From: Leucosporidium creatinivorum
Lineage: Eukaryota; Basidiomycota; Microbotryomycetes; Leucosporidiales; Leucosporidiaceae
Direction: 5' to 3'
NCBI GenBank assembly: GCA_001600635.1
Contig: BCKL01000002.1
Span: 50,458-114,457 of the forward strand
DNA: 64,000 nt
Every line of letters starts with the position of its first letter. Position 1 is the stretch's first letter. Below are positions 1 through 63,990 of the stretch, piece after piece. A program made the position numbers and the translations under genes. A model generated the notes under the pieces. It worked only from the letters and a program-made list of their open reading frames with translations. It ran no database searches and was not told where the DNA came from.

Positions 1-418
1 GACCTCCCTCGCCTCGATCGCACCTCAGCTGTACACGCTTAAAGCCGTCTTCGAGTTCGCCAGCTGGAGGGTGAGGACCTACACTCCATCCGATGTGCTC
101 ACCCCGATGTTGAGTGCCCTGAGGGATGTCGAATCTCTTTCACTGGGGGTCCTCGGCTTNGATCTCTCGGCGATCCTTCCTCTCCTTCAACCTCTTCTCC
201 GCCTTCGCACCCTCTCCATCGGCCAATTTAAGCTCGACGAGACTCAGGCTGCTTTTCACCAGATCACCTCGCAGGCGACAATCCACTTCATCAACGGCGC
301 CGTCGCTGTCAAGGCCCTCACCCTCCCTCGCCAGCTCGAGCAGGTCTGGACGAAGAATGATCTCGAGCTAGTCAAGGGTGTCGCTGAGCAGAAGGGTGTG
401 TGCTTCATGCTTGGATGA
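1..418 (+). CDS. F-box/LRR-like family paralogue A, C-terminal part only
   Basis: The reading frame is open from the window edge to a TGA at 416-418, so only the last ~138 residues are present. They align along their length with the C-terminal half of paralogue R (34937-36321): both have the core LSLGVLG, then ILPLLQPL/TLPLLQPL, then LPRQL.(E/Q)VWT, then VAEQK.V.F. This is the LRR-like half of a family whose N-terminus carries an F-box, so a role as substrate receptor of an SCF ubiquitin ligase is inferred, not shown. One ambiguous base (N at 160 or nearby) lies in the core motif. The stop codon is followed within a few bases by a strong donor, and a 3'-UTR intron runs about 422-494. The copy belongs to an A-B tandem pair matching the R-Q pair in inverted orientation. 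Confidence 0.75.
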   Translation, partial: TSLASIAPQLYTLKAVFEFASWRVRTYTPSDVLTPMLSALRDVESLSLGVLGXDLSAILPLLQPLLRLRTLSIGQFKLDETQAAFHQITSQATIHFINGAVAVKALTLPRQLEQVWTKNDLELVKGVAEQKGVCFMLG

Positions 419-421
419 GAG

Positions 422-494
422 GTGAGTTTTCGGCCTGCTCGCAGCTTGGTCGGCGACGAGGCGACGACGCTGACTCCTTTCTCGATTCTCGCAG
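422..494 (+). other. 3'-UTR intron directly after the stop of paralogue A
   Basis: The segment starts GTGAGTTTT a few bases after the TGA, has a CGCTGAC branch-like site and ends TCTCGCAG. The same position carries an intron in every family member that can be checked. Confidence 0.6.
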
Positions 495-775
495 AGCCCT
501 GCGCCGGAGACAGATGAGACCAGCTCGCTACTGTGAGACGCTGCTGTAATCTCGCTTGATGTGCCGCTTCGACGACGAGAGAGCAGCGAGTCTGCCTTCG
601 ATTTGAGACGAGCTCGGCGAGGAAGCGAAAGATGAAAGGCGAGGGAAGCGCTGATGTCGGCTCGTGTCGGCCCGGAGTAAGAGAGCCATGGATGAGAGGT
701 TCTTCAAGCTGCCTCTGGCCATTCCGAAGAAGTACTTCGCTCGCTTCTGGGCTGGCTCCGAGCTTGAAATCGGCG

Positions 776-787
776 CCGAGCTCGGTC
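776..787 (+). promoter_or_regulatory. palindromic CCGAGCTCGG box upstream of paralogue B
   Basis: CCGAGCTCGGTC lies about 226 nt before the ATG of B. The same word sits 215-232 nt upstream of paralogues Q, R and T, with a near match before X, always in the same orientation relative to the gene. The flanking sequence, GAGCTGAGGGCG, is also shared. It may be a real control site or simply part of a duplicated promoter. Confidence 0.4.
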
Positions 788-1012: not shown

Positions 1013-2390
1013 ATGGAAGCACAGCAGGATCAACAAACTACCAGCTCGACTCTGACCCGCCCTCAAAAGCCTACAGACTCGCACGCCGCCTCGCTTCCAA
1101 CAGAGATGCTCGCTCAAATCCTCGACGCCTCCGTCCAAGGACTCGAAGGCTGGGAGCGGCACCAGACGAGGATGGCGTTCGCTCGCGTATCTGTAGCGTG
1201 GTATGGCCTTGTTGGAGTAGGGAGGGAGATCGCCGTCAAAGACACGAAGATGGCCGAGCGCCTCGCCCGAGACCTCAAAGGACGACAAGGCGCCGAACGG
1301 AGGTCGAGGATCCGCTCGCTGTGCGTCGTAGTTGAGGGTGAAGGAGCAGGGAGGAGCAAGCGTGCCGCCAGCGTCATATCACAATGCCCTCATCTGGACA
1401 CTCTCGGACTCATCGCGGCCGGCGACACGCGCATCGGCTCGGCAGGCTGCCCGCTGGGCCAGCCCCTCGCTCAGGCGTTGCAGAAGCTCTCGCACAAAAG
1501 TTTCGTTTTGAGGAGCGAGGTCGACATGATGAAGTGGATGACCAGCGCGCAGTTCCTCGAGTGAGTTGCAGATCGACTTTCGCCGAGCACCGAGCGCTGA
1601 ACTCCTCCTGATCATCAGGTACTGCAGCAATTGGCCACGACTGCAGTCCCTCGCACTGGAAAACGTCTTGATGTCGCACTCCAACCGCGCTCTCCCTGCC
1701 CTGCCCGCCCTTCCGCTCACTCGCCTTCAACTACCGACCCCTACCCGATCGGAGAGCCAAGAGCTGGCCCCATTGTTCGCCGCCGCATCAGCAACCCTTC
1801 GCCATCTTCACTTTACACACAGCGTTGAGCGCCTTCCCTCCCGCCCATCCCGTTTACCGCAAGCCCCCCTCGCTCCGATTGTCGCCGTCGCTCATCAGCC
1901 CCTCAGCTTATCAACGGTCAGCGACACTAGATACCGGATGAGAGCGCCGGACGATCTCTGGTGGCCGACATTCAGCGCTCTGCGCGACGTGAAGGATCTT
2001 CGGCTCGGCTGCGCCGGCTACAAACTGGACCAAATCCTCCCTCTCCTCCAACGACTGCAGCACCTCGCGACCCTCTCCATCACGGACGCAAGTTCTTCTT
2101 CCCCAACCCACTCAAGGCAACCTCGGTTTGCCAAACTCACTCCTACCGCCGTCCTCGACTTCCTCGCCGAGGCGCCCGCTCTCCGGTCGCTGGCACTTCC
2201 CCACCACCTTCGCATTATCTGGACGGCCGAAGAGCTCGGTGAAGTGGCCGAGGCTGCTCTGAGGGGACAAGTGTTCTTCAAGCTGGACTGTGAGGTGAGC
2301 TCTAAGCTTTCAGTCCGGATAGAGACGCGCCAAAACTGACCGAAGCTCGTGCTCTTTCCGTAGCCTCCCTTCCCGAATAACATAATGTGA
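1013..2390 (+). CDS. F-box/LRR-like family paralogue B, apparently intact
   Basis: Predicted exons are 1013-1560, 1619-2294 and 2364-2390, giving 416 residues. Residues ~25-75 form an F-box-like segment (LPTEMLAQIL, then FARVSVAWYG). Next comes the family signature VKDTKMAERLA, and after the first intron the LRR-like repeats with WWPTFSALRDVKDLRLG and LPHHLRIIWTAEEL. The start at 1013 is chosen because the preceding CTACAGCTCAGC and following EAQQDQQ are identical in X and R, although the frame stays open upstream to about 632. The last intron replaces a stop by nine more codons (PPFPNNIM, then TGA). An SCF substrate-receptor role is inferred from the F-box. Together with R it is one of two full-length copies with no visible lesion. 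Neighbour A lies upstream in tandem. Confidence 0.8.
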
Positions 2391-33183: not shown

Positions 33184-34477
33184 TCACTCCAGCTTGAACC
33201 TGACACCCTTCTCCTCACCAGCGGCTTTAACCTCGGCGAGCTCCTCGGCAGTCCAGATGGGGCGAAGCTGATGAGGAAGGGCGAAGGATCGGAGAGTGGG
33301 CGCTTCGGCGATGAGGTCGAGGGCGGCGGTGGAGGTGAGCTTGTCGAAAGAGAGCGCTCTTGGCGGTTCGCCCGCAGAGCGAGGAGTCGGGTCGGAGATG
33401 GAGAGGGTTTCGAGGTGTCGAAGGGATTGGAGAAGCGGGAGGATCTGCTCGGGTTCATACCCGACGCAGCCGATTCGAAGGTCTCGGACATCGCGCAGAG
33501 CACTGAGCGTTGGCCACCAGTGCTCCATGTCGGCGAAGAAGCCCTTCTCGCTGATGGCGACTAGGCTTAGGAGTTGAGGGGCGACCGCAACGATGGGTGC
33601 GAAGGGCGCTGACGGGTTTGCCGTGTCCCACGCCACGTCGTAGATCGTCTGCCCGAGGTGGAGGTGGCGAAGTGTGCTTGAGGCAGCACGAGTGAGCGGT
33701 GCCAGCTCCGGTCGTTCGACAGGTCTCGGGGTCGGGAGCTGAAGTCGGACGAGTGGACACGAGGGTAGCGCTGGGTTCGGGGCATTGTCGAAGTTTTGAG
33801 TGCGCATATCGTCGAGCGTGAGAGCTTGCAAGTCCGGCCAGCAGGCGCAGAGTCTGGAGGGCAGAGGTCAGTCTTCGGCGCTCGGCTGAGGGAGAGCGAG
33901 CCTCCAACTCACTCGAGGGACTCGACCATGTTGAGCCAAGGGGTATGGGAGCTCCCAGCGGAGTTGATGATGGCGAATCCTTCAAGTGACAGCTTCTGTA
34001 GCGCCTGGGTGAGAGGCTTGCCCAGCTGGCTGCGCCTGTTGCCGAAGTGAAGTCCTCCGTTGCCCTCTGGGACCAGCTCGAACGTCTTGAGTCCAGGGCA
34101 TAGCGATACGAGAGCAGCTGCCCGTTTGCTTCTGCCCCCCCCCCTGCCATTTCGATGCCTACGCTAAGCGAGCGAATCTTCGACCTCCGCTCGGCGCCTT
34201 GTCGTCCTCTGAGCGTCCGGGCGAGGCGCTCCGCCATCTTGGTGTCCTTGACTGCGAATTCTTTGCTGAAGTCGACGGCTCCGTACCACGCTGCACAGAC
34301 TCCCGCAAAGCTCAGCCTCGCCTGCTGCCTCTCCCAACTATTCGAGTCCTCGAGCGACGCGACAAGAATTTGGGCGAGCGTTTCCGTAGGGAAAGAAGCG
34401 ACTAGCGAGTCTGTAGGTTGCTGGAGGCGGCGGGCCGTAGCTGAGTCCGTAAGTCCCTGCTCCTGCTGTTCGGCCAT
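33184..34477 (-). CDS. F-box/LRR-like family paralogue Q, frame broken at a poly-C run
   Basis: Exon 1 is 34477-33913 and exon 2 is 33853-33184. The F-box-like part reads FPTETLAQILVASLED, then FAGVCAAWYG and VKDTKMAERLA. Exon 2 has the full LRR-like half (HWWPTLSALRDVRDLRIG, LPHQLRPIWTAEELAEV, GVRFKLE). Within exon 1 a run of ten C (34135-34144; G on the coding strand) breaks the frame; downstream the family frame resumes (SKRAAALVSLCPGLKTFELV, LGKPLTQALQKLSLEGF). A run of eight or eleven would stay in frame, so this is either a young mutation or a homopolymer base-calling error. Everything else is intact, including splice sites and the stop-plus-donor arrangement. Q lies in tandem behind R, and the pair mirrors A-B. 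Confidence 0.65.
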
Positions 34478-34936: not shown

Positions 34937-36321
34937 TTAAGCCAGCAGGCTCAGTATGGACTCCGCGGCACGGTCCTGCGAAGCGCGAAGGAGAAGAGGT
35001 CAGCGACATCGCCGAGTTGTCAGCCCACGATCGTACGAAAATTTACCTCGCGTTCAAGAGCGAAGCGCACATTCTTCTGTTCAGCAACAGCTTTGACGCG
35101 CACCAGCTCATGTTCCGTCCAGACCTCACCGAGCTGACGAGGCAGGGTGAGAGCTTCGAGGGCGACGGCGCCGCCGAGGAAGTCGATAGCCGACTGCGAA
35201 GTAAGCCGATGAAAGGGAGCTTCGGTAGCTCCGAGCTTGGAGTGGCCTAGCGAGAGGGTGTGGAGGTGAGCGAGCGGCTGAAGGAGAGGGAGAGTGGTCG
35301 CAAAGTCGAAGCCGAGGACACCGAGCGAGAGCGCCTCAATGTCCCTCAAAGCCGTAAGCATGGAGGTCAGGGCGTCTGAAGAGGTGTAGGTCCCGTTTCC
35401 CCAGAGCGAGCAATCGAAGTCCGCCTTGAGGGTGATGAGTCGAGGTGCAATCGTTTCGAGGGAGCGGCTGAGCGCGGTGAGAATCCAGGTTAGGTTTCCT
35501 CCCGTCGTAGCAAATGCTCCTAGGTGCAGGTGGCGAAGAGTCGATTCGCTGGATTCCAAGAGCTCGATGTAAGTGGCGACCGAGCCAGAGGGCCAAAGAG
35601 GAAGATGGAGCTCCGAAAGTCGAGGGGTTGCCGTCTCCCAGGGGAGGTGGTGTGGCCAAGGGTTAAGCTTGACATCGGGGAGGCTGAGAGCAGTGAGCCC
35701 GGGCCACCTCATGAGGATTCTGCGGGCAGGAGGGGATCAGTTTAAGCACTCAATCTTGACGCCGCTCGGCGAGAGTCCTACGCACCGCATCAAATCGCCG
35801 CCGGAGATGCCCAAGTGGTCACGCGGAGACATCTTGAAGTGCTCGATCTTGGTGAGGTCTTTCAAAGCTTGAGTCAGGGGAGCGCCCAGCGACACCTCGC
35901 GTGTCCCAAGGTAGCAGAAGCCGAGCAGCTCCAACGTCTCCAGCTTTGGGCAGGCTTTGACGACGCTGGCAACGCGCTGACTCCGTCCAGCACCTTTCTT
36001 TTCGATCTGTACACTGAGCGAGCGAATGCTGGCCCTCTGCTCGGCGCTCGTCTTGGCGAGCGTGCTGGCGCAGCGCTCAGCCATGTTGCTGTCCTTGACG
36101 GCGAGCTCTCTGTACATATCGACAGCTCCGTACCAGCCTACACACGTTTTGGCGAAGCTGATCCTCGCCTGCTGTCTCTCCCAGGGGTTCAACCCCTCGA
36201 ACGACGACTTGAGGATCTGAGCGAGCGTTTCCGTTGGAAGGGAGGCGCCGGGAGCGTCTGTAGGTTGTTGAGGGCGGGCTGTAGTCGAGCTGGTAGCTTG
36301 TTGATCCTGCTGTGCTGCCAT
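34937..36321 (-). CDS. F-box/LRR-like family paralogue R, apparently intact
   Basis: Three exons (36321-35786, 35719-35047, 34975-34937) give 415 residues, almost the same as B. The N-terminus is MAAQQDQQATSSTTARPQ. The F-box-like part is LPTETLAQILKSSFEGL, then FAKTCVGWYG, and VKDSNMAER follows. The second exon holds the LRR-like half (ALSLGVLGFDFATTLPLLQP, LPRQLGEVWTEHEL). If the final intron (donor GTAAAT) is retained the protein ends at 35020 instead; spliced, it ends DRAAESILSLLA. It is the closest relative of A. The HMMR-like gene ends 385 bases upstream, and that gene's tail plus this promoter and gene were copied to 43.6-45.9 kb. The SCF receptor role is inferred. Confidence 0.78.
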
Positions 36322-36705: not shown

Positions 36706-39301
36706 TCACTCGAACAGCTCATCGACCGTCATCCTCCCCGACATCCTCACCGCCGGGCTCGACACACTGCGCTTCTTCATCATCGGCAGCGGAGGTTGGT
36801 GAACACCACTCGCCCGACCTGCTTTCCTCGAGCCGAGGCCGATGGACGAGGAGAAGCCCGAGGTGGAGCGATTGAACGCGGGCGCTGAGGATTGGAGAGT
36901 AGGGTGGGAGGTGCTGGTGGAGGGGAAGATGCGGTCGGGGTCCTGTTCGTCCTCGTCGGCGTGCTCGTGGATGACAAACCTCGGCACCTGGCCTTGGCTC
37001 GCGGAGACGCTGCGACTCGGCGCTGTCGCTGGCGGGGCTGGTCGAGCTGAGACCGAGGGTGTGAAGACGTCGTCCAAGACTGGTCTGGAGACGCGGGAGC
37101 GGGATGGGATGGTAGATGGTGGGCCCATGAGCGTGGTGGTCGGGAGGGGAGAGACGGAGCGGTATGCGGAGAGTTCGGCGCGGAGGGCGGTGAGCTCGGA
37201 TTCGGCCGAGGCGAGGGTTGAGGTGGTGGTGAGGTGTTTCTGTTGTCGTTCACACTCATAAGCGTACATCCCGATAACACAAGAAGCACGAACAACTCAC
37301 CCTGCGCGACTCGGCTAACTCCTCGCGAATCTGGGCGACATGGCGGATCTTCTGATGAGGGTTGCCATGCGAGATGAGCTCTGTGTTCTGCTCTGCGAGT
37401 TGGCGGTTGTCAAGCTCGGTGGCGGCGTTTTGACGGGCAAGTTGGTCGAGGGTGCGGCAGAGGTCTTCGTGCTGGGAGCCGACTTGCTCCAGGTCGGCGA
37501 TGCGGGCGAGGGCGCTGAGGGAGGGGATGGGTCAGCGAGGAGGGAGAGAGGGATGAGAGAGACGACTCACAGATCCAATTCTTCGCGCAGACCATCCTGA
37601 GCAGCCCTCGACTGCCCCAACAACCCAGCAACCCTCTTCTTCTCGCTCCTCTCCTTCTCCACTCCCTTCTCCTTCTCCCCGACCTTCCTCCTCTGCTCCT
37701 CCATCTCTCCCTCGAACCTCTCCAACTCGCTCACCGCCCTCTCCTGCAGCTCGTTGACATCTCCCTCCGCGACCGCCAGCGCCTCATGCAACTCCGACGC
37801 CCTCTCCCGCACCTCGTCGCGCTCCTCCGTGAGCGATGCGACCTGCTCCTCCAACCCTGGGATCTCCTCGTTAACAGCGAGGTCCAACTCTCCCTCCGCG
37901 ACTTCCAACTCCTTCTCCAACCTCTCCAACTCCCGCCTCGTTTCCTCCCTCCTCTCCCCCTCAACCCACTTCGAATCCCTCTCCACCTCCCTCCCAACGC
38001 TCACCCACCCCTCCAAGAACGCCACCTCCTCCCTCAGCCCGACCATCTCCCTTTGATCGCTCCTCGCCCGCTGCCTCCACTCCTTCTCGCCCCTCCGGTC
38101 CTCCCTCTCCTTCCTCCACTCTCCTAACGCCCACTCCCTCTCCTCCTCCGTCCGACCGAGCTCCTCCCTCAGCGCATCCGCCTCTTCTCCAACCTGAGCG
38201 GAGTACTCTCCCAACGCCTGTACCTGCGCCGTCCGGTCCTCCAATTGCCGTTCGAGGCGAGCGATCCGAAGCTCAGCGGCGGCGAGGTCGACTGTCCTGA
38301 CTTCCTTGACCTGGCCCCTCAGCTCCCTAACCATCTTCTCCGCTACCTCTACCACCTCTTTCCTCGCCCTCCCCTCCTCCCTAGCCTCCTTCCTCGCCCT
38401 CCGCCCCTCATTCTCAAGCTCGGCGATCCTCTCCTCCCTCCTCTCCACCCTCTCCTTCAATTCCGCGATCTCCACATCTCGGCGTTTGCGAGAGGCGTCG
38501 TGTGATTTGGTGAGCTCCTCGAGTTTGGATTGGAGCAGAGGGACCGTGGCGACGCGTTTGGAAAGGGAGGTTTCGGATTTGGTGAGCTTGGTGGTGAGGG
38601 CCGTTTGGTGGGAGGTGAGGTTTCCTGTGGGGTCAGAGCGGGTTAGCGAGGGTGGCAGAGAGACTAGAGCAAGGAGAGCGACTCGCGAACTTCAGCTTTG
38701 AGCGACAACAGCTCCTTCGCCGTCTCCCCTTTCTCGCGAACCGACTCGTCGCGAGCAGCTTCCAGACGAGTAATCTTGCTCAGGAGCTTGGCCGTCTCCT
38801 TCTCATGTTGGAGTTGTAATCGATGTTTGAGGTCGTCCATCTGTCACACGCTAATCGTCAGCTCGGCTCGCACAGAAAGCGGAGCGAGAGAGCTGACCTG
38901 CTGCCTTGCTCGTTCGGCTGCACCGATAGACACGAGTCCATTAGAAGCGCGAGGGCGTTTATTCTCCTTGGACTCGGGTTCATACAGACCGAACGTGTCT
39001 GCGCGGTTAGAATGTAGAGGATCAGCTCTCTCTGTTCGGCGCTTTCGGGGCTCGTTCAACATGCACTCACCTGGCCCTCCTTCCTTCTCTACAAACCTGC
39101 CCGCCTTCTCCAGCATAGCTCCTCTCTTATAGATGGGATCAGGTAAGCCGAGCGGGACATCGTAAGCTCCTACAGGCGGGATGTCGGCATTGGCTGAGTT
39201 GTTGTTTGATGAGGGAGGGTCAGCGCGTCTGAGAAGCTAGAGCTGTGAGAAAGGTGTAGCGTACTAGGTTCTATGAATCGCTTTGAGCGAGGGAATTGCA
39301 T
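36706..39301 (-). CDS. HMMR/RHAMM-like coiled-coil spindle protein
   Basis: ATG 39301 begins MQFPRSKRFIEP, then (after an intron) DIPPVGAYDVPLGLPDPIYK and AMLEKAGRFVEK. This 'FP.SKRF...PGAYD....K.....F.K..RF' pattern is the N-terminal signature of hyaluronan-mediated motility receptor proteins. The next exon has KENKRPRASNG. From ~residue 95 on the protein is almost continuous coiled coil (LQHEKETAKLLSKITRLEA, ELKERVERREERIAELENE and long E/R/L heptads). The C-terminal ~150 residues are disordered (VPRFVIHEHADEDEQDPD) and end SGRMTVDELFE. In animals these proteins bind microtubules and organise spindles; a like role here is inferred. The C-terminal exon and 3' flank are duplicated at 43625-44198. 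It diverges from the Tpz1-like gene across only 205 bases. Confidence 0.7.
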
Positions 39302-42482: not shown

Positions 42483-42782
42483 TTGGATGGTTGAGATGCG
42501 GAGAGAGAGGAGGAGCTCGGCGCCGAGCGAAGGGCGAGGGGACGCGCTTGCTTGTGATGTGTGAGGTGACGGGTGTTCAAGATACGCTTGTAGTGCTTGT
42601 GTATGTACCTTAGTCGCTTGCGCTTGATCCGTCGAGTTCGAGAGCTGTACAGAGAGATGAAGCTGCTCGGCGCCCGATCTCAGAAAGGCCAAGTCCGAAA
42701 GTCGGCTTGCTCGTTTCTTGCTCTCCTTTATCGCTACTCGTCACATTCTCCAACACTCGGCTGTACTGCCCTACAGAAGCAC

Positions 42783-43586
42783 ATGCTGCCCCCACCACCA
42801 GCCTACAGCTCTCTCAGCTCGCCTCACCCCACCTCTGAGCTCTCGGGGCTGCTCTCCTTACCCCAGCATCTACTCCTCTGTATCTTATCATCCCTCCCTC
42901 TTTCCTCCCTCATTTTCTCCCTTCGCCCAAGCTGTAGGACATTACACCTCCTCAGCACCGCCCTCTCCCGTCAACAGGTGCTCGCTTCCTTCCGCGCTAG
43001 AATCAAGCAGAGGGGCAACACTACAGCAGCCGGCGGTCCCTGGCAACCTTCTCACTCCGCCGCTGCTGGGACGGGAGGAGGGAATGTACTACAGAGCAGA
43101 AGCAGGGAGACGGTGGTGCTCGACTTGTGGGCATCGACGCTCGCTCTTTCTCAGCTGAGGAAGGGCGAGTCTACACTGCTACAGCAAGCCTCCGAGGAAG
43201 ATAGCTCGGCCGAGCAGGACCTCTTCGACTTCCTTCAGCCCAAGGCGAGGGTGGAGGATTTGGTCGTCCAGTGGGGGAGGGAGGATAGGGTCATTTATTC
43301 GGAGGGAGATGCTGCTGGCGAGGGAGGGGGGACAGTACTCGCTACAGATGTTACCGTACAGCTCGGCCGAAGTAGCGCCAAGCTACTGCTGCCGTTTCGG
43401 AGCTCGAGTTCGGCGGAAAGGTCGGCGGCGGGCAGGGTGAGGACGGTGGAGAGAGCTGTAGTTGAGGTTGGGAGAGGAGAGGGAGAGACGTTGGAGATAG
43501 TGGCAGATCGGTTGGTCCAGGGGTTGAAGAGCGTGAGGGCCTGGAGAGAGGAAGAGAGGGGAGTGGGGTGGTATGAGTCGGGTTAG
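42783..43586 (+). CDS. F-box-like protein, unrelated to the expanded family
   Basis: A single exon of 267 residues starts at ATG 42783. Residues ~20-65 (LLSLPQHLLLCILSSLPLSS, then LRPSCRTLHLLSTALSRQQV) have the spacing of an F-box: LP, a helix, then a conserved C-R-x-L. The remainder (ETVVLDLWASTLALSQLRKG, DLFDFLQPKARVEDLVVQWG) contains no LRR signature and does not align with the eight paralogues. It ends just before the duplicated HMMR tail; a GTGAGTTG donor and an ATAG acceptor in the spacer suggest that the transcript may splice into it. The predicted function is as an SCF adaptor, weakly supported. Confidence 0.55.
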   Translation: MLPPPPAYSSLSSPHPTSELSGLLSLPQHLLLCILSSLPLSSLIFSLRPSCRTLHLLSTALSRQQVLASFRARIKQRGNTTAAGGPWQPSHSAAAGTGGGNVLQSRSRETVVLDLWASTLALSQLRKGESTLLQQASEEDSSAEQDLFDFLQPKARVEDLVVQWGREDRVIYSEGDAAGEGGGTVLATDVTVQLGRSSAKLLLPFRSSSSAERSAAGRVRTVERAVVEVGRGEGETLEIVADRLVQGLKSVRAWREEERGVGWYESG

Positions 43587-43624: not shown

Positions 43625-44198
43625 CAGAGTGAGTTGTTTGATAATTCTGGAGGATTCTCGAAGCTGCGCTGATGCTCTGACAATCTATAGCGCCACTCGA
43701 CACCCCTCGCCTTCGCCGAACCTTCAAACGTCGAACTCTCTGCCTACCGGTCCATCTCTCCCCTCCCACTACCACGCTCATGGGCCACCATCCATCGGCC
43801 CCTCCCTCATCCTCCTCTCCTGCTCAGCCCCCGACGACGCCTTCACTCTGTCCGTCTCAGCTCGCCCAGCTCCTACCCTTCCAGCCACAGCGCCGAGTAG
43901 GAGCTTCTCAGCAAACCAGCTGCCGAGGTTCGTCATCCACGAGCACGCCGATGAGGAAGAGGAGGACCTCGGTCGGATCTTCCTCTCCAGCACTTCCCAC
44001 CCGACCCTCCAATCCTCCGCACCCGCCTACAACCGCTCCACCTCGGGCTTCTCCTCCTCCATCGGCCACGGCTCGAGGAAAGCAGGTCCAGCAAGCGAAG
44101 TGCACCAACCTCAAACACCGACGATAAAGGAGAGGACCGTCTCCAACCCAGCGGTGAGGATGCCGGGGAGGATGACAGTGGATGAGCTTTTCGAGTAA
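43625..44198 (+). pseudogene. duplicated C-terminal exon of the HMMR-like gene
   Basis: From about 43690 the sequence matches the last exon of the HMMR-like gene (minus strand, 37240-36706): CTCATGGGCC near 43780, then protein VPRFVIHEHADE-like LPRFVIHEHADEEEEDLGRI, HPTLQSSAPAYNRSTSGFSS and GRMTVDELFE followed by a stop. The match begins near an intron copy at 43625 (GTGAGTTGTT at both loci). It continues past the stop into the intergenic DNA up to paralogue T. None of the coiled coil is present. The reading frame is still open, so a chimeric product with the upstream F-box-like gene is possible. Confidence 0.75.
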
Positions 44199-44353
44199 GG
44201 TTTGGTTCGCCGTGCTAAAGCCTGAGTGGAGGGGTGAGGGGTGAAGGGACTGGTCGAACTGTTGTGTTAGCTTAGATATGTGGTGGTGATGGCTTGTAGT
44301 TGTTAGGCGTTTATCAGTGCTGAGGTGCGGAGGGAGAACGAGAGCGAGAGTTC

Positions 44354-44365
44354 GCCGAGCTCGGT
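44354..44365 (+). promoter_or_regulatory. palindromic CCGAGCTCGG box upstream of paralogue T
   Basis: CCGAGCTCGGTC ~230 nt before the ATG of T. It is preceded by AACGAGAGCGAGAGTTCG, identical to the region upstream of R. Confidence 0.4.
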
Positions 44366-44592
44366 CGAGCAGTTGACGGCGAGAGAGCAGCTGCAGGTTG
44401 CTCTTGAGGGTAGAGACAGGTAGTCAAGACTCTACTCAATTGCTGTGCGACTTTGCTTTCTCGTGTGCTGCACCTCAGCACCATCGACCCCCGTCCGCTC
44501 TCGACCCTTTCTCCGAGCTCGAGCCGTGTTTCCCTCTTTCTCTCCCGCTTCTCACTTTGTTCTCGCTCTCGACTCATCGGCTACAGCTCAGC

Positions 44593-45893
44593 ATGGCAAG
44601 AAAAGGCGGACAACAAGCTACCAGCTCGACTACAGCCCGCCCTCCACAACCCACAGCCGCGCCCGCTCCTTCGCTTCCAACGGAAACGCTCGCTCAGATC
44701 CTCGCCTCGTTGTTCGAAGGCTTAGACGCCTGGGAGAGGCAGAAGGCGAGAATACCCTTCGCTCGAGTCTCTGTAGCCTGGTACGGCGTCAGTGAGATAG
44801 GCAAGGATCTCGCTGTCAAGGACACCTACATGGGCAAACGTCTCGCTCGGACGTGGAGCGAGCGAGGTGTAGGCGCCGCACGGAGGGCAAGAGTCCGGTC
44901 GCTCACTGTGGGCATTGAGACAGCTGGAGGAGGAAGGAGTCAACGGATCGCTAGCCTTCTATTAGCCTGTCGGGGCATCGACACGCTGGAGCTAGTCGCA
45001 GAAGACGGAGTCAACCTCGGCTCTAGACATTGCCAGCTAGGGAAACCGCTCATGCAGGCGCTACAGCAGCTTTCACTCAAGAGCGTCGCCATTACTAGCC
45101 TCGCGGCTGAAGCGCCCACCTTGGACTACGTAGAGGTCCTACAGTGAGCATCCACCATTTCCGCCGAGCGCCGAGCTGCCGAAACTGACGACCTGCTCTG
45201 CTCAGACTCTGCGCTGTCTGGCCTCGCCTACAAGGCTTCTCGCTCAGCAACGTCGAGACCTGGGACCGTGACGGGACACCCCTGCCGACCCTTCCAACTC
45301 TCCCCCTCACTCGCGTTTCACTCCCAATCCCTATAGGCTCGGGCAGGCTAGAGCTCGAGCCCCTCCTCATCGCTGGATCGCACACCATCCGGCACCTCGA
45401 ATTTTCTCCCGGAACCCCTTCCAGCTTCCACAGTCCCCAACGCCAGCCAGCAGAACCCTTCGCTCCCATCATTGCCGTCGCTCCTCGACTCCTCACCTTG
45501 TTCGCCATCGGGCAGGCAACCTGGCACGCCGAACTGGAGTTCGAGGATTACTGGTGGCCGACCTTCAGCGCTCTGCGTGATGTCCAAACCCTCCGAATCG
45601 GCTGCGTAGGCTACAACCTCGCCGAGATCCTCTCCCTCTTCCAGCAGCTGCAACATCTCGTCACCCTCGCCATCTCCGATCCAGGCCCTCGCTCCACATA
45701 CCGCTTCGACGTCCAGAACCGCCCCAGCTTCAACAAGCTCACGTCCACTGCCGCCCTCGACTTCATCGCCGAAGCTCCCGTTCTCCGGTCCCTCGCCCTC
45801 CCTTATCAACTACGACCGATCTGAACCGACGAGGAGCTCGCCAAGGTGGAAGTCGCTGCTGAGAAGAAGGGTGTGAGGTTCAGGTTGAAGTGA
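44593..45893 (+). CDS. F-box/LRR-like family paralogue T, premature TGA near the end
   Basis: Exons 44593-45143 and 45206-45893 give 413 codons. F-box-like part: LPTETLAQILASLFEGL, then FARVSVAWYG. Signature: VKDTYMGKRLAR. LRR-like half: YWWPTFSALRDVQTLRIG and LPYQLRPI. At 45822-45824 the conserved Trp codon of the motif 'IWT(A/D)EEL' is TGA; the frame then continues TDEELAKVEVAAEKKGVRFRLK to TGA 45891-45893, followed after a few bases by the family's 3' intron. The protein would lose only ~23 residues, so it may still work. T sits behind the duplicated HMMR tail, so the block was copied from the HMMR-R locus; the N-terminus MARKGGQQATSSTTARP is like R. Confidence 0.65.
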
Positions 45894-46592
45894 TAGGTGA
45901 GTCTGAAGGCTCTTGAGAACTATTTCGGCTATCGACGCTGATCTCGTCTCCCTCTGTCTCAGCGTAGAACGGCGCTCAACTAGAAGAGATGGTGTGGGAG
46001 GCTGAAGCGAACATACATTGATGCACGGGCATTGCTATCAGAGTCCAGCTACGTCTGAAGAGCGAGCGCGAAGCGACTCGGCGCTCGACGAGCTCGGCGA
46101 AGTGTCGAATCAGGCCCGCCAGCTCATTTGTCGAGCTCGCAGCTCTACTGCCGGATCCCGCTGCTGGCTTGACGTTTTTCTAGGTCGGTGCAGAAGGTAG
46201 CGCAGGAGTTGAAGGCGCGACGACGGGGAACAGAGCGCCCGCCGAACGGAGGATGATGCCGCTGGGACGGGAGAGGATGAGTACACCTATGACGTCTGTA
46301 GGCGAATATTTTTAGCGGGGAATCGGCGCTGTAAGCCGAATCGTCGAGCTTACTCTTGTGAGCTGTGAGGCGAGTGAGCGTCGCGTCAACCTCGGGCGGC
46401 GTTTCGAGCGGTGCGATAGGTGCAGAGGCCTGTAGAGGTGTAGCAGGATATCAGCTCGAGCTCGTATTCACTGCTAACCGACGACTCGCCATCTTCTTGG
46501 TGAAACGAAGGAGACGAAAGGGCGCGACGACTCCGCTCGTTTCTTGTCCTCCTCCAAATCGCTGCTCGCTGGACGACACTCGCTCTGCTAGC
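45894..46592. other. 699-base intergenic region
   Basis: It begins with the 3'-UTR intron of paralogue T (to ~45962). The rest holds no supported gene and ends at the EZH2-like start. Confidence 0.5.
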
Positions 46593-49500
46593 ATGTCAGA
46601 CTCGGACATCGAAGTGAGCCTACTACCTGCTGCTCTGCAGTCTACCACAGCTGACCCTGCTATCCTCGAGCAGATGGTCGACGTCAAGGCGGAAGCTGGG
46701 CCCTCGTCCGGCAACTGCATCACTTTGAGCGACTCGGACGACGAAGCCAAATCTGAGATCAAGCCTATGCGACCAGCTCATTCAGCCAGGAAGAGCGCGC
46801 CGAGCCAATACGTCCCCTCCCTTGCAGCCAGAGCGGCGCGGAAGAGCGCGCCGAGCACTCATATACAGGCGGGACTCAGCCAGCGTGCTCTTGCGAGAGA
46901 GGTACATGGCAGTCGTCCCTCCCGCAAGGACGCGAGCTTGAGGCCTGACTTGCCTGGCTCGGGGTGGTCGGACAGGTCGGCGANTCGAGACAGCTCGGCG
47001 GCAGTGGAGGAGCTTGGAAACAGGCTCAGGGCTATCGAGATGTACGCTCTTCTCTTACNACTGCTTCGATACATACANCTAACCCGCTTACGGCTNGCAG
47101 CATTCGACCGGATCAGCTCACCCTCTCCGTCGAAATCACCGAGCTCCGCCTACCCAGTTCCTCCCTCCCAGCCAGCTCCCCTTCGACCAACGAAACCATC
47201 TTGCTCGTCGAGACAAAGCTTACTATCGCCTGCACCGATTCGCTTCAGTACCTTGACCTCAACGACGCCAAACGCGACTCGGACACNAAGCTNTCGCACA
47301 GCCTTTGGCGCCCTCGACTCAAGTCGACCCANCGCTCGCCAGCCACTTCTTACTCTAGCCTCGTTCCTTGTACACCTTTCTCTCTCTCGTTCGACCTCGC
47401 AGCACCGTCCTGCGATGCCAGCGACAATACGCCGTTACTCGACGCGACTCTGACTCTCAGCATCATCGATCCCAGCTCAAAAGCCCTCATCTTCAACGAG
47501 AAGATCCAACTCGTCGAGAATCTGCAGCTCGTGCTAGGAGAGACGAGACATCTCCGCCCTCTCNACGAGCCGGAGGCGTACGCCGAGCTGACTTGGAGGT
47601 GGAAAGTGCCGAGGTCTGCGACGACGATTGGCGTTATGGCGCGCGAGTCAGGCGGTCAGAAGGCTGGGCAAGGGAANCTGACTGGACAGAAGATGGAGAA
47701 GATTTTGGAGAGGGCCTTGGAAGNGGAGGATAGGAAGGTCAAGCTGGAGATGCTGAGCTCGACCGAGGTGAGCGCTTGAGCCNGTTCTGAACCGTCTTCT
47801 CGTCTACGATCCTCCAAGCTAACCTCTAGATTCACTCTATTACCACAGGCCCTCTCCGAACTGGACGGCAGCACCCTCNAAGCTCTCCAGAACCACACTA
47901 AGCGTTCGGCGTTCCGCCAACGAGGCAGCTCTTCCCGCTTCCATCCTCTCCCTCGGCGCCCTATCGCTCTCGAACCCGCTATCAACTCTACTCGTGCTTA
48001 TCTCGACACTATNCCCTTTCCTCGCTCCAGTCACGTGGCTTTCACAACGCTCGGCACACCCCACCCTTCCGCCGACCTCGAGCTCCCTCCCAGCGTCGCC
48101 CACCCCTCGGCCAAAACTCTCGAAGATCGCTCGCTGGAGTCGGAAGTCAAAGAAGAGAATGTCGCCACGACCATGTTCGAAGAGTTGCTCTACGTCGAGG
48201 AGCCGAAGAGAGCGCCAGAAGCGAGGGAGCCTGAGGAGCGTGGAGTCGGTCTCAGGAAGGTCGGTGTAGATGGGAGGGTCAAGATTTTGCAGCAAGCGGA
48301 AGTGGCGACCATTTTCGACTCGGACAGCTTCTCGCCGCGGGAGCAGCTTCGTGAGTGCTTGTCGCCCTCCCTGTTCGGCTGGTCGAGCCTCTACTCACCA
48401 TCTTTGATCTGATGCAGATACCATCCGCGACTTCTCCGGCCTCTTCACGCTCGTATCACACCTCGCTGTCGACTCCGCTAGGCTCAAATCGCCCGAGCTT
48501 GCCGGTCACGTCGATGCCATCGACTTCGAGCGCTTCTTGGCCGAAAACGACGTCGAGGTCGGACGCGAGCTGAGGACCGCGTTCGATGTCTTTGCGAAGA
48601 GAGTGGGGAGGACTGCTTACGAGGTGCAGAGAGCGTGAGTTGGCCGCTCGGCGTAACGACTCGGCTCGAGCGTCGGCTGACCCCTTCGCTCTCACAGCCA
48701 CCGTGCTTTCAGCTTCGAGGAGGTCGTTTCCGAGTGCGTTTAGATTCCACTTGCGTTGCACACGGTACATCCCGGCGCCTCCGGACTCGAGCTGACGAAT
48801 CTCGCTTCGCAGTCCTTGCCGCCCACCGATGTGCGCGATGTGCGGTGCTCGCTCTTGCAGCGTGCATCTGCGTAAGTTTATAGTCGTCCACTCGATATCG
48901 TCTCATCTTCGCAAGCTCTTGTGCTAACCCTCGTCTGCGCAGCCGACACCTCGGCCGACAACGTCCCGACGTCGACCTCGTACGCCAACAAGCACAAGCA
49001 GCATCAAAAGAACGTCTCACCGTCTTTCACCGAGACTGTCTGCCTGCCCGGATGCGGCTACCAGAAGCAGGCGCCGTCAGTGAGTCGTCAGTCGTCCTCG
49101 CCTCCTCGGCTCTGGCTGACCTTCGCTCACTGCGTTCGCAGACTGCACCCTGGACCAACGAGGAGAAGTCAGAATGCGACGCTCTGATGCAAGCCATGCC
49201 GGAGCTCATCGCCTGCCAGATGGCGTTGATGGTCCGCAAGCATTGCGCCGAGGTGAGTCCGAGCGCCCGTCCGCGATCTTCGAGGAAACGGCGCTGATGA
49301 TCCCTCGCCTTCTTCGTAGGTCAGCGCCTACTTCCAAGCTCGCGGTCACTCTCCTACGCCTCTTCAACCTCTCGCCAGCTCCTCACCTACCATCCAATCT
49401 CGCAACTTACCCGACTCGCTCGCCTTCCCGGTCTCTCTCTCGCAAGGCTACGACCCCTGCACTTGCGGAGGGCATTGTTCGACTGCTCAAATGCAGGAAG

Positions 49501-50593
49501 GAGCGGCGTGTCTTTGCTTGAGATACGGCTCGTGGTGCGATCACTACTGTGGCTGCGCCGCTGATTGTGAGTTCGCCGAACAGCTCCCACAATCGCCGAG
49601 CTGACCTTTCTCCGACTTGAATAGGTCCGCGCCGCTTCCGGGGATGCAACTGCAGCTCGTCCGACAATGCCTGCAGGTCGGAGTCATGCCCTTGCTGGCT
49701 CGCCGCACGCGAATGCGACCCTCTTCTGTGCGCCTGCTCGACTCGTGAGTGCTGTTGCTCTCTCGCTCGACCTGGAACTAACAGCCTCCATCTCATTTGC
49801 CTATAGCCGATTGTCGCAGCAGCCAAATCCGCCGCCGCGATCTCAAGCGCACCATCGTCGTCGAGTCGATCAACCCCGAAGCTGGATACGGGTGAGCCTT
49901 TTCTCGTCCCTCCTCCCATCTCAGTTTGACAATAGCTAACGTTCCCTCTCCGCAGTCTCACCATGCTCGAATCTGCCAGGACGGGCGACTTGATCGGCCT
50001 GTACGGCGGCGAGGCGTTCGACCTCGGCGATCCCTTTGGACGTCTCGCTTCGTACGTTCGCCCTGCTCTGGCTCTTCTCGAGTCGAGAGAAATCGTGCTG
50101 ACCTTCTGGTACATTTGCTGCCATCGCCATCAGCGAGACTACCATCGCCGTAAAGACCGTGAGTGACGGTCGCGCATTGCTCGCTCATGTCGCAGCCCAC
50201 TGACGTGCTGTGGCCGACAGAGCTACTGGTACGATCTCGACTCGGAACACGCCATCGATTCACAGCAATATGGAAACGCCATTCGATACATAAACGACCT
50301 CGGCAACCACAACTGCGACGCTCGGCGTTCGTACTTGTCTCCTCTGGGCTCTTCTCCGGTAGACGCCTCGCTAACGCTCTTATTGAACAGTGACCTATAT
50401 CGACGGTGTTCACCAAATGGCTCTCTGTGAGCCTGCATTCCTCTCACTCGAAGAGAGCAACCGCTGACCTACCGCCGACACCTCCCTCGCAGACGCCTCC
50501 AAAGACTTTAAGGCCCGCGATGAACTCTCGCTCGACTACGGCAAAGGGTACTGGCATAATTGCGTTGGCGTACAGCGTGGAATCGATGCTTGA
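46593..50593 (+). CDS. EZH2/KMT6-like SET-domain histone methyltransferase
   Basis: ATG 46593 opens a long multi-exon gene. The N-terminal half is divergent (acidic TLSDSDDEAKSE, then KSAPSQYVPSLAARAARKSA). The diagnostic part is C-terminal. The CXC-type Cys-rich region reads DPCTCGGHCSTAQMQEGAAC, then CLRYGSWCDHYCGCAADC, CNCSSSDNACRSESCPC and CDPLLCACSTR. The SET domain reads VVESINPEAGYGLTMLESAR, TGDLIGLYGGEAFDLGDP, SYWYDLDSEHAIDSQQYGNA and ELSLDYGKGYWHN, with TGA at 50591-50593. CXC followed by SET is the order of H3K27 methyltransferases of Polycomb complex PRC2. The usual NHS-x-x-PNC motif reads INDLGNHNCDA. Thirteen isolated ambiguous bases fall in 46984-48013. Exon borders in the middle are approximate. 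Confidence 0.8.
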
Positions 50594-50867: not shown

Positions 50868-52146
50868 ATGGAAGCACAGCAGGATCAACAAGCTACCAGC
50901 TCTTCTACAGCTCGCCCTCAACAACCTACAGACTCCCTCGTCGCCTCGCTTCCAACGGAAACGCTCGCTCAAATCCTCGAATCGTCGCTCGAAGGACTCG
51001 ACGCTTGGGAGAGGCAGCAGACGAGGACCACCTTTGCTCGGGTCTGTGTCGCCTGGTACGGAGCGGTCAACCTGGGAAGGGAGGTGGCCGTCAAGGACAC
51101 CAAGATGGCGGAGCGCCTGGCCAAGCAGCTCAGAGCGGGGGAGCGCTCGAGGAGGAATAGCGTGCGCTCGCTCAGCATGTACATCGAGTCGGACGGAGCG
51201 GGCCGCAGCAAACGAGCGAGTCGTTTGCTCTCGGCGTGCCCACACCTGGAGTCGCTGGAGATGCAAGCTAGAGGACAGATCTACCTCGGCGCCAGCAGCA
51301 TGACCGACTTCGGCAAACCCCTTTGACAGGCGCTGCTGAAGCTGCCGAGCCTCAAGAGATTCCAATACAGCACTGTAGAGATCGCTTTGATCCCCACGCA
51401 CGATTTCCTGCCGTACGTTTGATTCGCTCCGAAGCCTGCGCCGAGCCGAGCTGATCTACTGTCGGCGACTCCCCAGATTCTTCGCCAGCTGTACTCAACT
51501 CCGGTCAATCACCCTCGATAACGTCTCCTTGGTTTCGGGCCGCGGAGTCGACGAGCCGCTTCCGCTGGCACTCCTCCCAGCGCTCACCCGACTTGAACTG
51601 GCCCTCTCGGACGTGCCAAAAATTCTCCCCTGCGCCCGCAACACACTCCGACACCTCGTCCTCACCAAAGCACCCATCTACCCGTATCCAACAGCCATCG
51701 AAGCCACCTCGGAGCACCCTCTCGCGCCAATCACCGCCGTAGCTCCTCAGCTTCTCTCCCTCGTTGCCGTCGCCCAGCGGCAGCAGAACACCTACCACCA
51801 CACCGAGCTGGGTGATTACTGGTGGTCAACGCTCTGCGCTCTCCGAGAAGTCCAGACACTCCGTATCGGAGTTACAGGCTACCGACTCGAAGCCCTCCTT
51901 CCCCTTCTCCAGCAACTCCAACACCTCGCCATCCTCGCCATCTCCGACCCGAAGCAGATCTGGTACGAGATCTTCCCTCCGCTCCAACTCCTCACCTCCA
52001 CCGCGACCCTCTACTTCATCGCCGAGGCTCCCGCTCTCCAGTCTCTCACCCTGCCTCATCAACTTCGCAAGGTCTGGAACAAGGAGCAGCTGGCAAGCGT
52101 GACAGCTGCTGCTGATGAGCAACGTGTGCGCTTCGAGCTCATATGA
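50868..52146 (+). pseudogene. F-box/LRR-like family paralogue X with an in-frame TGA in exon 1
   Basis: Exons 50868-51412 and 51477-52146 give 405 codons. The start MEAQQDQQATSSSTARPQQP and the F-box-like LPTETLAQILESSLEGL are nearly identical to B. The signature VKDTKMAERLA and exon 2 (YWWSTLCALREVQTLRIG, LPHQLRKVWNKEQLASV, RVRFELI) are complete. TGA at 51324-51326 interrupts the conserved segment GKPL-(T)-QAL; the frame continues normally afterwards. The stop would remove the whole LRR-like half. The 3' TGA is followed at once by the family's intron (GTGAGCTGA...TTGCAG). No other lesion is seen, so the loss is recent or the base is in error. The gene lies in tandem before Y. Confidence 0.65.
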
Positions 52147-52536: not shown

Positions 52537-53840
52537 ATGGCCGAGCTAATGGGATCAGTATCTACGACCCCGACTGCACCCCGCCTCCATCAAGCTCCCA
52601 ATGCGCCCGCCGCCGCCCTTCCAACAGAAACGCTCGCTCAAGTCTTCAATCTTGCGCTGCAGGGATTGGGAGCCTGGGACCGTCAGAAGGCGAGGTTGGA
52701 GCTCCCCAAGACCTGCGTACAATGGTACACAGTCGCCGAGCTGGGTCGGGAACTGTCGGTCAAGGACACCAAGATGGGAGAAGCCGTCGCCAAGTCGCTC
52801 AACAATCAAAGCGCCGAACGACGAGCGCGAGTTCGCTCGCTGAGCATGGGCATCGAGGAGGCGAAAGGACCAAAGATGAGACCAGCCAGGAGCACAAGAG
52901 CGGCTGCTCTCTTGTCCGCCTGCCCCAATCTGGATTTGATTGAGCTTGTCGCGGCTGGCAACCTCTACCTCGGCTTTGTCGGCAAGGAAGGGCCCCAGCT
53001 AGGCAACCCGCTCAGCCAGGCGCTTCGAGAACTCTCGCCTAGGGAGTTCACCATCTCCAGCACTAGAGAAGGAGCGGACACGCCTTGGCGGGACACTAGG
53101 GAGCTTCTCGAGTGAGTCGGTACCGCTTGCGCCGAGCTTCAAGCTTCGCAGTCTGAGTCGCTTTGCCCCCAGACTGTGCGCCATTTGGACTCGCCTTCAA
53201 TCCCTCACCCTCGAGAACGTCCGCACTCAGACCTTCTCCCGCGCCACCCCCCCTACCAACCCTTCCACCCCTCCCACTCACTCGAATTCAACTTCCCGTC
53301 TCCATCGGCAAAGGTCGACCAGAGCTGGCACCACTGCTGGGCGCTTCATGTACTGCGATCCGACACCTCCACCTCACCGGAACGCTCGACCACTCCAACT
53401 GCTTCAAACACCCCTTCGCGCCCTTCGCCTCCAGCATCGCCATCGCTCCTCAGCTCCTCACGTTGGTGGCCATCAGCGAGAACAAACTCTACAGCGATAT
53501 CCTTGACGAGCACTGGTGGCCGACACTGTGTGCTCTGCGAGACGTCCGCGAGCTTCGCATCGGGACCTTCGGCTACCGACTCGACGACGTCCTCCCTCTT
53601 CTCCAACGACTCCAGCACCTTGAAACCCTCTCCATCTCCGACAATAGCTCGATGTATGCCTCCACTCGCGCCATATATAGCCGCCTCACCGCCACCGCCG
53701 TACAAGGCTTCATCGCCGAAGCGCCGGCGCTCCAATTGCTCGCTCTGCCTCATCAAATGCGCTCGATGTGGACCATGGAGGAGCGGGCTAGCGTCAATAA
53801 AGCTGCCGTGAGGAGGGGCTTGAGCTTCTCATACGAGTGA
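52537..53840 (+). CDS. F-box/LRR-like family paralogue Y, frame broken at a poly-C run
   Basis: Exons 52537-53111 and 53173-53840. It is the most divergent full-length copy: the N-terminus is MAELMGSVSTTPTAP rather than the EAQQDQQ type. The F-box-like part is LPTETLAQVFNLALQGLG, then LPKTCVQWYT, and VKDTKMGEAVAKS follows. Exon 2 begins LCAIWTRLQSLTLENV in the family frame. After a run of seven C near 53257-53263 it continues in another frame (LPTLPPLPLTRIQLPV, HWWPTLCALRDVRELRIG, LPHQMRSMWTMEERASV, GLSFSYE). Total exon length leaves one surplus base, which confirms a single frame change at the run. It is either a fresh mutation or a homopolymer error. The stop and the following GTGAGT donor keep the family arrangement. 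Confidence 0.6.
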
Positions 53841-61473: not shown

Positions 61474-61681
61474 GGAGACGAGACGACGTGCTTGAGCTTG
61501 ATGCTTTGTTCGATAGATCCCCCACGAAACGATGTGCTTGTAGTCTTTCCCAATAGCCAGACTTCGCGTTTGACACTCCCTTGACGAATCGACTGCGAGC
61601 GAATGAGAGTAATGCAAAATGACTATACGGCTACAGATGCGAGGGGTGTGAAGGAGGAGATGGGAGCGCCGAGCTCTCACT

Positions 61682-62697
61682 TCACCCGCTGAGGGAGAGG
61701 AGCAAGTCGGCGACATGTTGCTTGGTAGAGAGGTCGTCCTCGAGCTCAATAGCACGATCTACGACGCGAGGGTCGTTGCCGTGTCTGCGAACGAAAATGC
61801 AAGGTCAGCCAAGGTTCGACTTGAGGAGAGGGCGACCCGATAACTCACTCTGCAGCAAGTTGACGAGCTACACGAGCGTCCGTGATACCAGCCTTTTGAT
61901 AATAGGCTTCTCGAGTGAGGGCTTTCCAGATGAGGTACACGGCCGCCGAGTTGCCTTGCTGAGCCTCGGCTTTGAGTCGTTCTGCTCGGCGCGCAAAGGT
62001 CAGCCAGCGGCTCACAGAGATCGTCCATACGGGGGAAGGAGGACTCACCCATGCTCCTGATACTCATTTCATCCTCCCCCGCGCGCACCCAGACGATATG
62101 CTCCTCCCCATAGCACTCGGCGTTCTCCTCCAATAGAGCGTACCATCCCCCTCCGCTCCTTCCCGCCCACCTCTGCTCATCCGCCAGCCTCTCCTGCGCC
62201 TCCCACGCCGCTGACCTGCTCCTTCCTCCCTCCCACCCTACGGGCGAAGTCCTCCCCGACTTGCTCGGACTACTCCTCGCGCTTCGGTTCGGCGATGGCT
62301 TGACCGGGCTGACACTCGCTCCTCGGTTCTCCTTGCCCGCCGAGTTGGCCCTCCTCCTCTGCGCCGCAATTTCTTGCGCTTCCCTGAACCTCCGCTCTCC
62401 CTCCAGCCGCCGGTTTTGGACTTTTTCATCCTCTTCAGCTGCGTCGTCCGGTCTCGTCACGCCCGCCGAGTGCTGAGCTGGATTTTGCCCCTGCTGGCTT
62501 GGGGGAAAGTCGAGGGTAGCAGGTGATGAAAGAGCTTGGTGCTGTAGGTCGTTGGAGCTGAGTGGGAGTAGGTGAGGTCCTCGTGGAAGGGGCGGCGGCA
62601 GGGCGAAAGGCGAGAGCAACGCATCTTGGAGCATCGGGCCTGTAGAGGAGGAGAGGAAGGAAGAAGGTGCAGGAAGGTCGAGGGTGAGGTGTGTCAT
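61682..62697 (-). CDS. unknown protein, basic Ser/Pro-rich with helical C-terminus
   Basis: ATG 62697 (MTHLTLDLPAPSSFLSS). The first exon encodes ~215 residues: a Pro/Ser-rich head, a charged helix (GERRFREAQEIAAQRRRANS) and SP/SPxK-type sites (KPSPNRSARSSPSKSGRTSP) that could be kinase targets. It ends with GWYALLEENAECYGEEHIVW. Two further exons give ERLKAEAQQGNSAAVYLIWK, LTREAYYQKAGITDARVARQ and, to the stop at 61682, NDPRVVDRAIELEDDLSTKQ with VADLLLSLSG. The C-terminal helices resemble a small protein-protein module. I do not recognise the family. It converges with the CDCA7-like gene across 208 bases. Confidence 0.6.
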
Positions 62698-63164
62698 GTT
62701 GGACTACAGATTGGTGCTGAGTTGGAGGCCAAAGGTTGGAGAGGAAAGGAAATCCTTGCTGAGCGCTGACGAAGAAAGACGGCGAGCGGGCGAAGAGCAA
62801 CGTCCGTCTGGATTTTGTAGTCGGAGACACGGAGCTTGGGCCACCGCGGGAAGCTGGGAGGGTAGTTTTCCAGCCCTAGTATCCCTACAGCACTAGCAGG
62901 ATACAGGAAGGTTGAGGGTGCAGGCGAGAGACGTTGGCGAACTCGCGAGTCGCTCGACCGAGCAGCGAAGGAGCCCCACATTCGAATCGTAGAGCGGTTT
63001 CGATGGTCTTGTTGCAGTCCAGTCAACGTAAGGCAAGCATTCGTATCATCTCATCATTGAGCGAGCTTGTATGTCGTTCCCTCCCCCTTCGGCATTTATC
63101 TGAGCGAGCGCAGGTAAGCTTCGCCGAGACTCGGGCGAGAGGCCAGCGACTCACCTCTCACCGC
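62698..63164. other. 467-base intergenic region
   Basis: No supported gene is seen. It should hold the promoter of the preceding minus-strand gene and the 3' end of the broken F-box copy. Confidence 0.5.
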
Positions 63165-63990
63165 AAACATCACGCCGGTCTCTTCAGCAGCAAGCTCTAC
63201 TCCACCTAGCTCTCCCGGCGTCCAAATCGAATGTAATTGGCGCGGCAGGACGAGCGAGCGAAGAGCGGGCGCCTCGGTGATGAAGTCGATCGCTGCGTTG
63301 GCGGTGATCTCGTGAGAAGACGAGGAGCGGTCGAAAAAGTCGACTCCAGAGATTGAGAGGGTGACGAGGTGCTGAAGCGACTCGAGGAGTGGGATGTTGG
63401 GTGGAAGAGGCGCGCAGGGGCGAGCGCGAGTGGACCGAGTTGATGATGTAGGGATGTTGGAAGCGAGGGGGTGAGAAGAAAGGATTGGTGTTGGATGTGA
63501 GGAGTGTTAGGAGGTTCGGATGGATTTGTTCTAGATCACTTTGGCCGTAGAAAGACTTCGGCGCCGCGCAGGGACTCTCTTCTTCATCGAGTCCCGCTCA
63601 TCTCAGTCGCGCGCCAGGTTAGTACACTTCATTGCAAGATAGATCGAGTCCCGCTCATCTCAGTCGCGCGCCAGTATTATCACATGGGAGAATGGCGCTG
63701 CTGTCGTAGCCGACAAGACCGAGTCGGAGGGATTGAACGTCTCGAAGCGCGCAGAGAGTCGGCCACCAGTGATCCGCTAGCTCGGTGGAGTGTTTGGTAG
63801 CAGTGATGGGAGTGAGCGAAAGAAGTTGAGGGGCCATCGCGGCCACCGGATCGACACTTGAAGTTGAGCGCGCCGAGGGCGGGTACTGCTCGCCGCCGCT
63901 CGTCGCTCGAGCTCGTCTTGACACAACGCCGTCTCCCTGCCCCTCGCATCGTCAAAGCCGCAAACCGAGCGAAGTCACAGTAGCACTTCA
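63165..63990 (-). pseudogene. F-box/LRR-like family paralogue, eighth copy, interrupted
   Basis: On the minus strand the LRR-like half is recognisable: MAPQLLSLTPITATKHSTEL, then HWWPTLCALRDVQSLRLG and LVGYDSSAILP down to 63685. Then, after a ~290-base foreign stretch, IPLLESLQHLVTLSISG, IDFITEAPALRSLVLPRQLH and IWTPGELG run from 63391 downward, with a donor after GVMFAVRG as in the family. The interruption does not begin and end with GT/AG at the homology borders, so it is not an ordinary intron. Beyond 63850 the match fades and the window ends before any F-box exon. Confidence 0.7.
63586..63674 (+). repeat. 32-nt direct repeat, two copies 57 bases apart, inside the insertion
   Basis: Copies at 63586-63617 and 63643-63674 share ATCGAGTCCCGCTCATCTCA and the following GTCGCGCGCCAG without mismatch. 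The second copy ends 11 bases from the border where F-box homology resumes. Confidence 0.8.

Follow-up and report, generated by a model that had tools for sequence, protein, structure and literature searches.

A large mosaic family of F-box/leucine-rich-repeat-like genes in a basidiomycete yeast, probably SCF receptors under purifying selection

Do eight related loci crowded into one 64,000-nucleotide stretch belong to a family of receptors for protein destruction, and is that family changing fast towards new targets? The stretch (the window) is C2:50458-114457, where C2 is contig BCKL01000002.1 of assembly GCA_001600635.1, a genome of 27.7 Mb in 63 contigs. We describe the size of the family, its gene anatomy, a match to its predicted fold, its constraint, its mosaics and the lesions that it carries in this assembly. 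Our best explanation, to which we assign a probability of about 70%, is a lineage-enlarged family of FBXL-type receptors of the Skp1-cullin-F-box (SCF) complex that undergoes birth, death and conversion and forms a partly functional, drifting repertoire under purifying selection. The rival explanations brought in below are not all mutually exclusive, and not all of them exclude this one.

An earlier note had placed eight F-box/leucine-rich repeat (LRR) paralogues in the window. Profile searches built from the copies matched all eight loci, with the best piece per locus ranging from E 3.5e-27 (copy 8) to 1.8e-82 (copy 3). Intact genes of the family have two exons and a GT-AG intron of 54-72 nt near codon 180. 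The window heads scored below the Pfam cut-offs, the best F-box-like match reaching E 0.034 in one of five heads. The member C5:444k clears the Pfam F-box-like cut-off at 29.6 bits against 24.3 (residues 26-72); its head is homologous to the window heads, with the F-box match at the same residues, and through this homology the window heads appear to be N-terminal F-boxes. Leucine-rich repeats were found in the C-terminal part. The predicted model of copy 4 has three helices at residues 30-65. When it was used in a fold search, FBXL17 of the FBXL17-SKP1 complex ranked top by Z, tied with RanGAP, FBXL2 and NLRC4; the match ranges to FBXL17 and FBXL2 begin at residues 22-28, and the NLRC4 range is similar. 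Folded alone, the head gave a low-confidence model (predicted template-modelling score 0.38). Homology and predicted fold thus support an F-box head joined to an LRR half, and this part of the note's reading holds. No NCBIfam family matched seven members. NACHT and NB-ARC, the nucleotide-binding domains that would mark fungal NLR-type recognition receptors, were absent among the five Pfam families matched at E<=1 by the seven full-length members.

The genome has one Skp1 match, in two pieces (C30:225470-225695). Residues of about 27-70 would form a divergent F-box docking on this single Skp1, and the remainder would be an LRR solenoid holding a target for SCF ubiquitination; the targets may be diverse. 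Two weak head relatives lie at C30:213958-216068, ~9 kb from the Skp1 match.

The heads of copy 2 and C5:444k were then used as genome queries (E<=1e-3; all counts are lower bounds). They hit 74 and 76 places, which merged to at least 73 loci on nine contigs: 40 on C5 (18-716 kb), 15 on C2 (27-142 kb), six on C17, five on C50, two each on C30 and C62, and one each on C3, C18 and C52. The weakest of these, on C18, C30 and C3, could instead belong to other F-box relatives. A query with exon 2 of copy 2 hit at least 33 places. Neighbours within 2.5 kb lie on the same strand in 19 of 20 pairs, and such pairs hold 38 of the 73 loci; on four contigs, 17 same-strand pairs were observed, where 5,000 random draws gave 5.6 on average and never more than 13. 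The Pfam family PF12937 (F-box-like) was matched at 128 or more places in the genome, with 150 of 330 candidates scored, and one of the 128 was among the 73 family loci. Because standard domain scans miss nearly all of the family, the F-box numbers published for related fungi may be underestimates. The F-box set also looks larger here than in relatives: PF00646 has 32 places in this genome against 7-18 in three Microbotryomycetes according to the accessible text of PMC4469406, with methods differing.

Protein-database searches scored 7,993 and 7,995 candidates sharing most words, followed by 386 candidates. Among the scored proteins, the relatives were three annotated in Leucosporidium creatinivorum, one from the jgi source and one from the lgn source. 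The three are the hypothetical proteins BCR35DRAFT_303263 (50% identical to C2:140k), BCR35DRAFT_300866 (58% to C17:311k) and BCR35DRAFT_192229 (a shorter model, 42%), with a UniRef name reading 'F-box domain-conta...'. As the nearest named proteins come from L. creatinivorum and the first two share 50-58% with the copies closest to them, the source of this genome is probably a relative of that basidiomycete yeast. In a tree of 28 rows, which left out the jgi protein, the lgn protein grouped with copy 7 (100/100), one L. creatinivorum protein fell among the WWPTL-type copies and two fell with C17:311k. Since the relatives are nested inside the family tree, some of the expansion is older than the split between the species.

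The rate of change was examined at the level of gene pairs and of codons. The 19 intact genes gave 171 pairs, of which the 25 closest are reported; in these, the ratio of nonsynonymous to synonymous divergence (dN/dS) was 0.27-0.52, with dS from 0.12 to 1.9. With dS close to 1 in most of these pairs, the bulk of the expansion is not recent. For single sites we applied a FUBAR-like grid method, implemented by us, to 12 intact copies of C2, C50 and C62 (399 codons). Constraint was found at 220 codons. The signal for beta>alpha exceeded 0.9 at three, compared to one in each of three null simulations. The three weakly positive codons fall at residues 3, 24 and 87 of copy 2, the last (0.952) in the first helix after the F-box.

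By region, beta/alpha was 0.22 in the F-box, 0.23 in the WWPTL part and 0.24 in the C-terminal part. The first of these values bears on whether the proteins could be LRR proteins without SCF function, whose F-box-like head no longer binds Skp1. That would suit window heads lying under the Pfam cut-offs and a fold that RanGAP and the nucleotide-binding LRR protein match about as well as the FBXL proteins do, but the head is among the most constrained parts and one member clears the cut-off, and we regard a loss of SCF function across the family as unlikely. In the LRR strands the ratio was 0.24, with 0.14 at positions classed as hydrophobic core and 0.31 at the other, exposed positions; helices had 0.27 and loops 0.43, and the first half of exon 2 had the highest value, 0.46. 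Diversifying selection on the LRR face was rejected: not one exon 2 codon among the 12 copies exceeded 0.9, although the power of the tests is limited by a high dS, near 1-1.5. The regional ratios and the site results therefore suggest that the variable part is less constrained and not visibly driven.

These values also bear on the guess, made in the earlier note, that such fast-expanding receptors recognise foreign or self proteins and have changing targets. The note had proposed a search for codons with dN/dS above 1 in the LRR half, and this gave none among the 12 copies; with the low pairwise ratios and the age of most of the expansion, fast change towards new or foreign targets is not supported. 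A related explanation is recognition of non-self or selfish elements, with SCF receptors whose private middle LRRs bind viral, transposon or incompatible-partner proteins and whose diversity is kept by selection. We consider it improbable. A large family with a shared head and a mostly private middle would fit it, as would the peak of beta/alpha in the first half of exon 2 and the two copies on C62, a contig that starts with telomere-type repeats; against it stand the exon 2 codons without a diversifying signal, with the limit on power just given, the exposed strand positions that change less than the loops, and the placement of STE3 and homeodomain genes on other contigs. A link to mating type was itself rejected, with STE3 on C25 and a homeodomain gene on C24. 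The two C62 copies lie 10.8-13.9 kb inward of the repeats, and the parts of C2 and C50 that were inspected showed no telomere-type repeats. A 4.1 kb block that is 98.3% alike between C2:13612-17698, just after the first N run of C2, and C50:42862-46946, at the end of C50, is possibly a subtelomeric repeat.

How the copies came to differ was read from their mosaics. A run test on variable third positions with Bonferroni correction found significant identity tracts in 2 of 91 and 4 of 21 pairs, six in all, as in gene conversion. Copy 5 is 95-100% identical to C2:116k in the 5' part, 57-85% in the middle and 97-100% towards the C-end, and its middle holds a 120 nt tract 92% like C2:140k. By similarity, C2:119k appears nearest C2:28k from +40 to about +280 and nearest copy 4 over most of the remainder. 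Pooled dS in the 12 copies rises from 0.67-0.69 in codons 1-40 to 1.27-1.52 past codon 104, a rise that is weak in a subgroup of six. In a scan of 30 loci with a true start (120-nt windows), a paralogue was found for 21 at -140, for all 30 at -20 and +40, for eight at +520 to +640 and for 24 at +940. The middle LRRs are thus mostly private to each copy. The C5 trio has the opposite pattern, similar LRRs with different heads, and C5:269k and C5:240k hardly differ over codons 181-390 yet diverge upstream of them; conversion therefore does not spare the middle as a rule.

Collectively, we propose that new members arise when DNA is duplicated in tandem or in blocks, with introns kept, that members would be lost to stops, frameshifts and truncation, and that ectopic gene conversion may reshuffle the copies. 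Conversion would homogenise parts of the gene, probably the 5' end with its upstream region and the F-box more often than others, and would leave the middle LRRs (roughly codons 115-290) private in most copies. A bolder version, which we hold to be very doubtful, is that ~200 F-box loci (the 73 plus 127 others) form one SCF recognition repertoire, in which conversion keeps the promoter region and the Skp1-docking head common and the private middle LRRs act against foreign or selfish proteins. The conversion tracts between named copies allow the diversification of a receptor family to be tested.

The state of the window copies in this assembly is given in Table 1.

Table 1. Family copies in the window, with window positions and condition in this assembly
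Copy	Position	Strand	Structure and condition
1	2..418	+	3' part of exon 2 (second LRR half); 5' part apparently before the window, across an N gap
2	1013..2339	+	Intact; exon 1 1013-1560, intron 58 nt, exon 2 1619-2339; 422 aa
3	33184..34477	-	Exon 1 34477-33913 with frameshift at G10 run (34135-34144); intron 59 nt; exon 2 open
4	35020..36321	-	Intact; exon 1 36321-35786, intron 66 nt, exon 2 35719-35020; 411 aa
5	44593..45890	+	Exon 1 44593-45143, intron 62 nt; premature stop in exon 2 (45822-45824); mosaic
6	50868..52146	+	In-frame TGA in exon 1 (51324-51326); intron 51413-51476; exon 2 open
7	52537..53840	+	Exon 1 open, 52537-53111; intron 61 nt; frameshift in exon 2 at C7 run (53247-53253)
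8	63162..63876	-	Headless exon 2 fragment in two pieces, 63685-63876 and 63162-63395

Two of the eight copies, 2 and 4, are intact two-exon genes; four carry a stop or frameshift, and the others are a fragment and a 3' end. The earlier note had the loci in the right places and set the ends of copies 2 and 4 beyond where they stop. Its claim of a head in every copy is true of six within the window, copy 8 being headless and the 5' part of copy 1 lying beyond the gap. The WWPTL and LPHQL motifs that it gave to all copies are those of a single subfamily; a second one, which includes copies 1 and 4, has LTxMLxALRD and LPRQL. The window start coincides exactly with the end of an N run of 2,835 bases. 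HMM (hidden Markov model) positions 81-217 of copy 1 continue positions 1-80 found on its other side (C2:47375-47614), and the sequence leading up to the run repeats C2:28553-31996 in inverted orientation at 99.3%, a match that continues past the gap at 92-100%; copy 1 is a near-identical inverted duplicate of the gene at C2:28141-29400. Both continuities suggest that it is the 3' part of a gene whose start lies at C2:46777. The stop in copy 5 replaces a tryptophan that relatives have near the C-end. Between the pieces of copy 8 lie 289 bp, which contain two direct repeats of 32 bp (63643-63674 and 63586-63617), 57 bp apart start to start.

The lesions of copies 3 and 7 lie at homopolymer runs and could be sequencing errors. 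That all broken copies are assembly artefacts of an intact array would also accord with the 14 ambiguous bases in the window and the N run just before it; the stops of copies 5 and 6 lie outside homopolymers, as does the truncation of copy 8, and other window open reading frames (ORFs) of 543 to 738 codons are open, which makes this explanation a doubtful one. On five contigs, the window included, 33 loci were modelled, 22 on C2, C50 and C62 and 11 on C5 and C17, with copy 8 excluded. Nineteen were accepted as intact; the remaining 14 comprise eight with a broken frame, two cut by a contig or locus end, one across the N gap, and C2:26k, C5:83k and C5:205k, left without an intact call for want of a clear splice. 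Mostly neutral genomic drift, in which the copies are ectopic-recombination duplicates and few are functional, is a possibility that we rate as somewhat unlikely. It is favoured by this share of intact loci, by the six window copies that are not intact, and by a duplication that took along a piece of a neighbouring gene; it is opposed by the constraint on more than half of the codons in the 12 intact copies and by the dS near 1 that separates intact copies.

The duplication in question joins the flanks of copies 5 and 4, which are 77% alike over 1.1 kb (43729-44833 and 36081-37180), including the end of the adjoining coding region. The adjoining ORFs both end in MTVDELFE, at 44198 and 36706, which shows that pieces of flanking genes can be taken along in a duplication. 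A 3.8 kb block at 46117-49896 recurs inverted at C2:152927-156728, 88.5% alike. Thirteen of the 14 ambiguous bases fall within it (46984-48013), and this suggests a partly merged repeat.

The surroundings had been described as conserved genes. This is borne out in part: of 20 other ORF pieces picked from the ORF list, two matched WAPL and one pro-kumamolisin in Pfam at E<=1e-3, and the rest had no match. ORF 42594-43583 contains the stretch LPQHLLLCILSSLPLSSLIFSLRPSC, by eye like another F-box, and had no Pfam match at E<=1e-3. A GCCGAG intron motif seen in window copies was dropped, as it occurs in 3 of 19 intact introns and has a chance of 0.09 per random 58-nt stretch.

The family probably selects proteins for destruction. 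Its expansion is notable without being unprecedented: the kind, F-box/LRR genes with birth, death and conversion, is ordinary, and the size and near-invisibility to Pfam are unusual. No title on this gene family was found in the literature searched; Leucosporidium and F-box occur together in the available part of PMC10662464. The annotated L. creatinivorum proteins are direct homologues, but three were found there in limited protein searches against at least 73 loci here, and limits of annotation or search may hide others. The FBXL proteins (SKP2, FBXL2, FBXL17 and plant D3, all SCF substrate receptors) likewise combine an F-box-like head at the N-terminus with an RI-type LRR solenoid after it, and are among the best structural matches of the family model; unlike them, the window heads are too divergent for Pfam and belong to a multigene family of this size in one genome. 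Birth and death also mark the lineage-specific F-box expansions of plants and Caenorhabditis. Those expansions have large copy numbers that are unequal between relatives, according to the accessible text of PMC3030570 and PMC8665587. In contrast to them, the family described here belongs to a basidiomycete yeast lineage, has visible conversion tracts and has an exon 2 without a diversifying signal.
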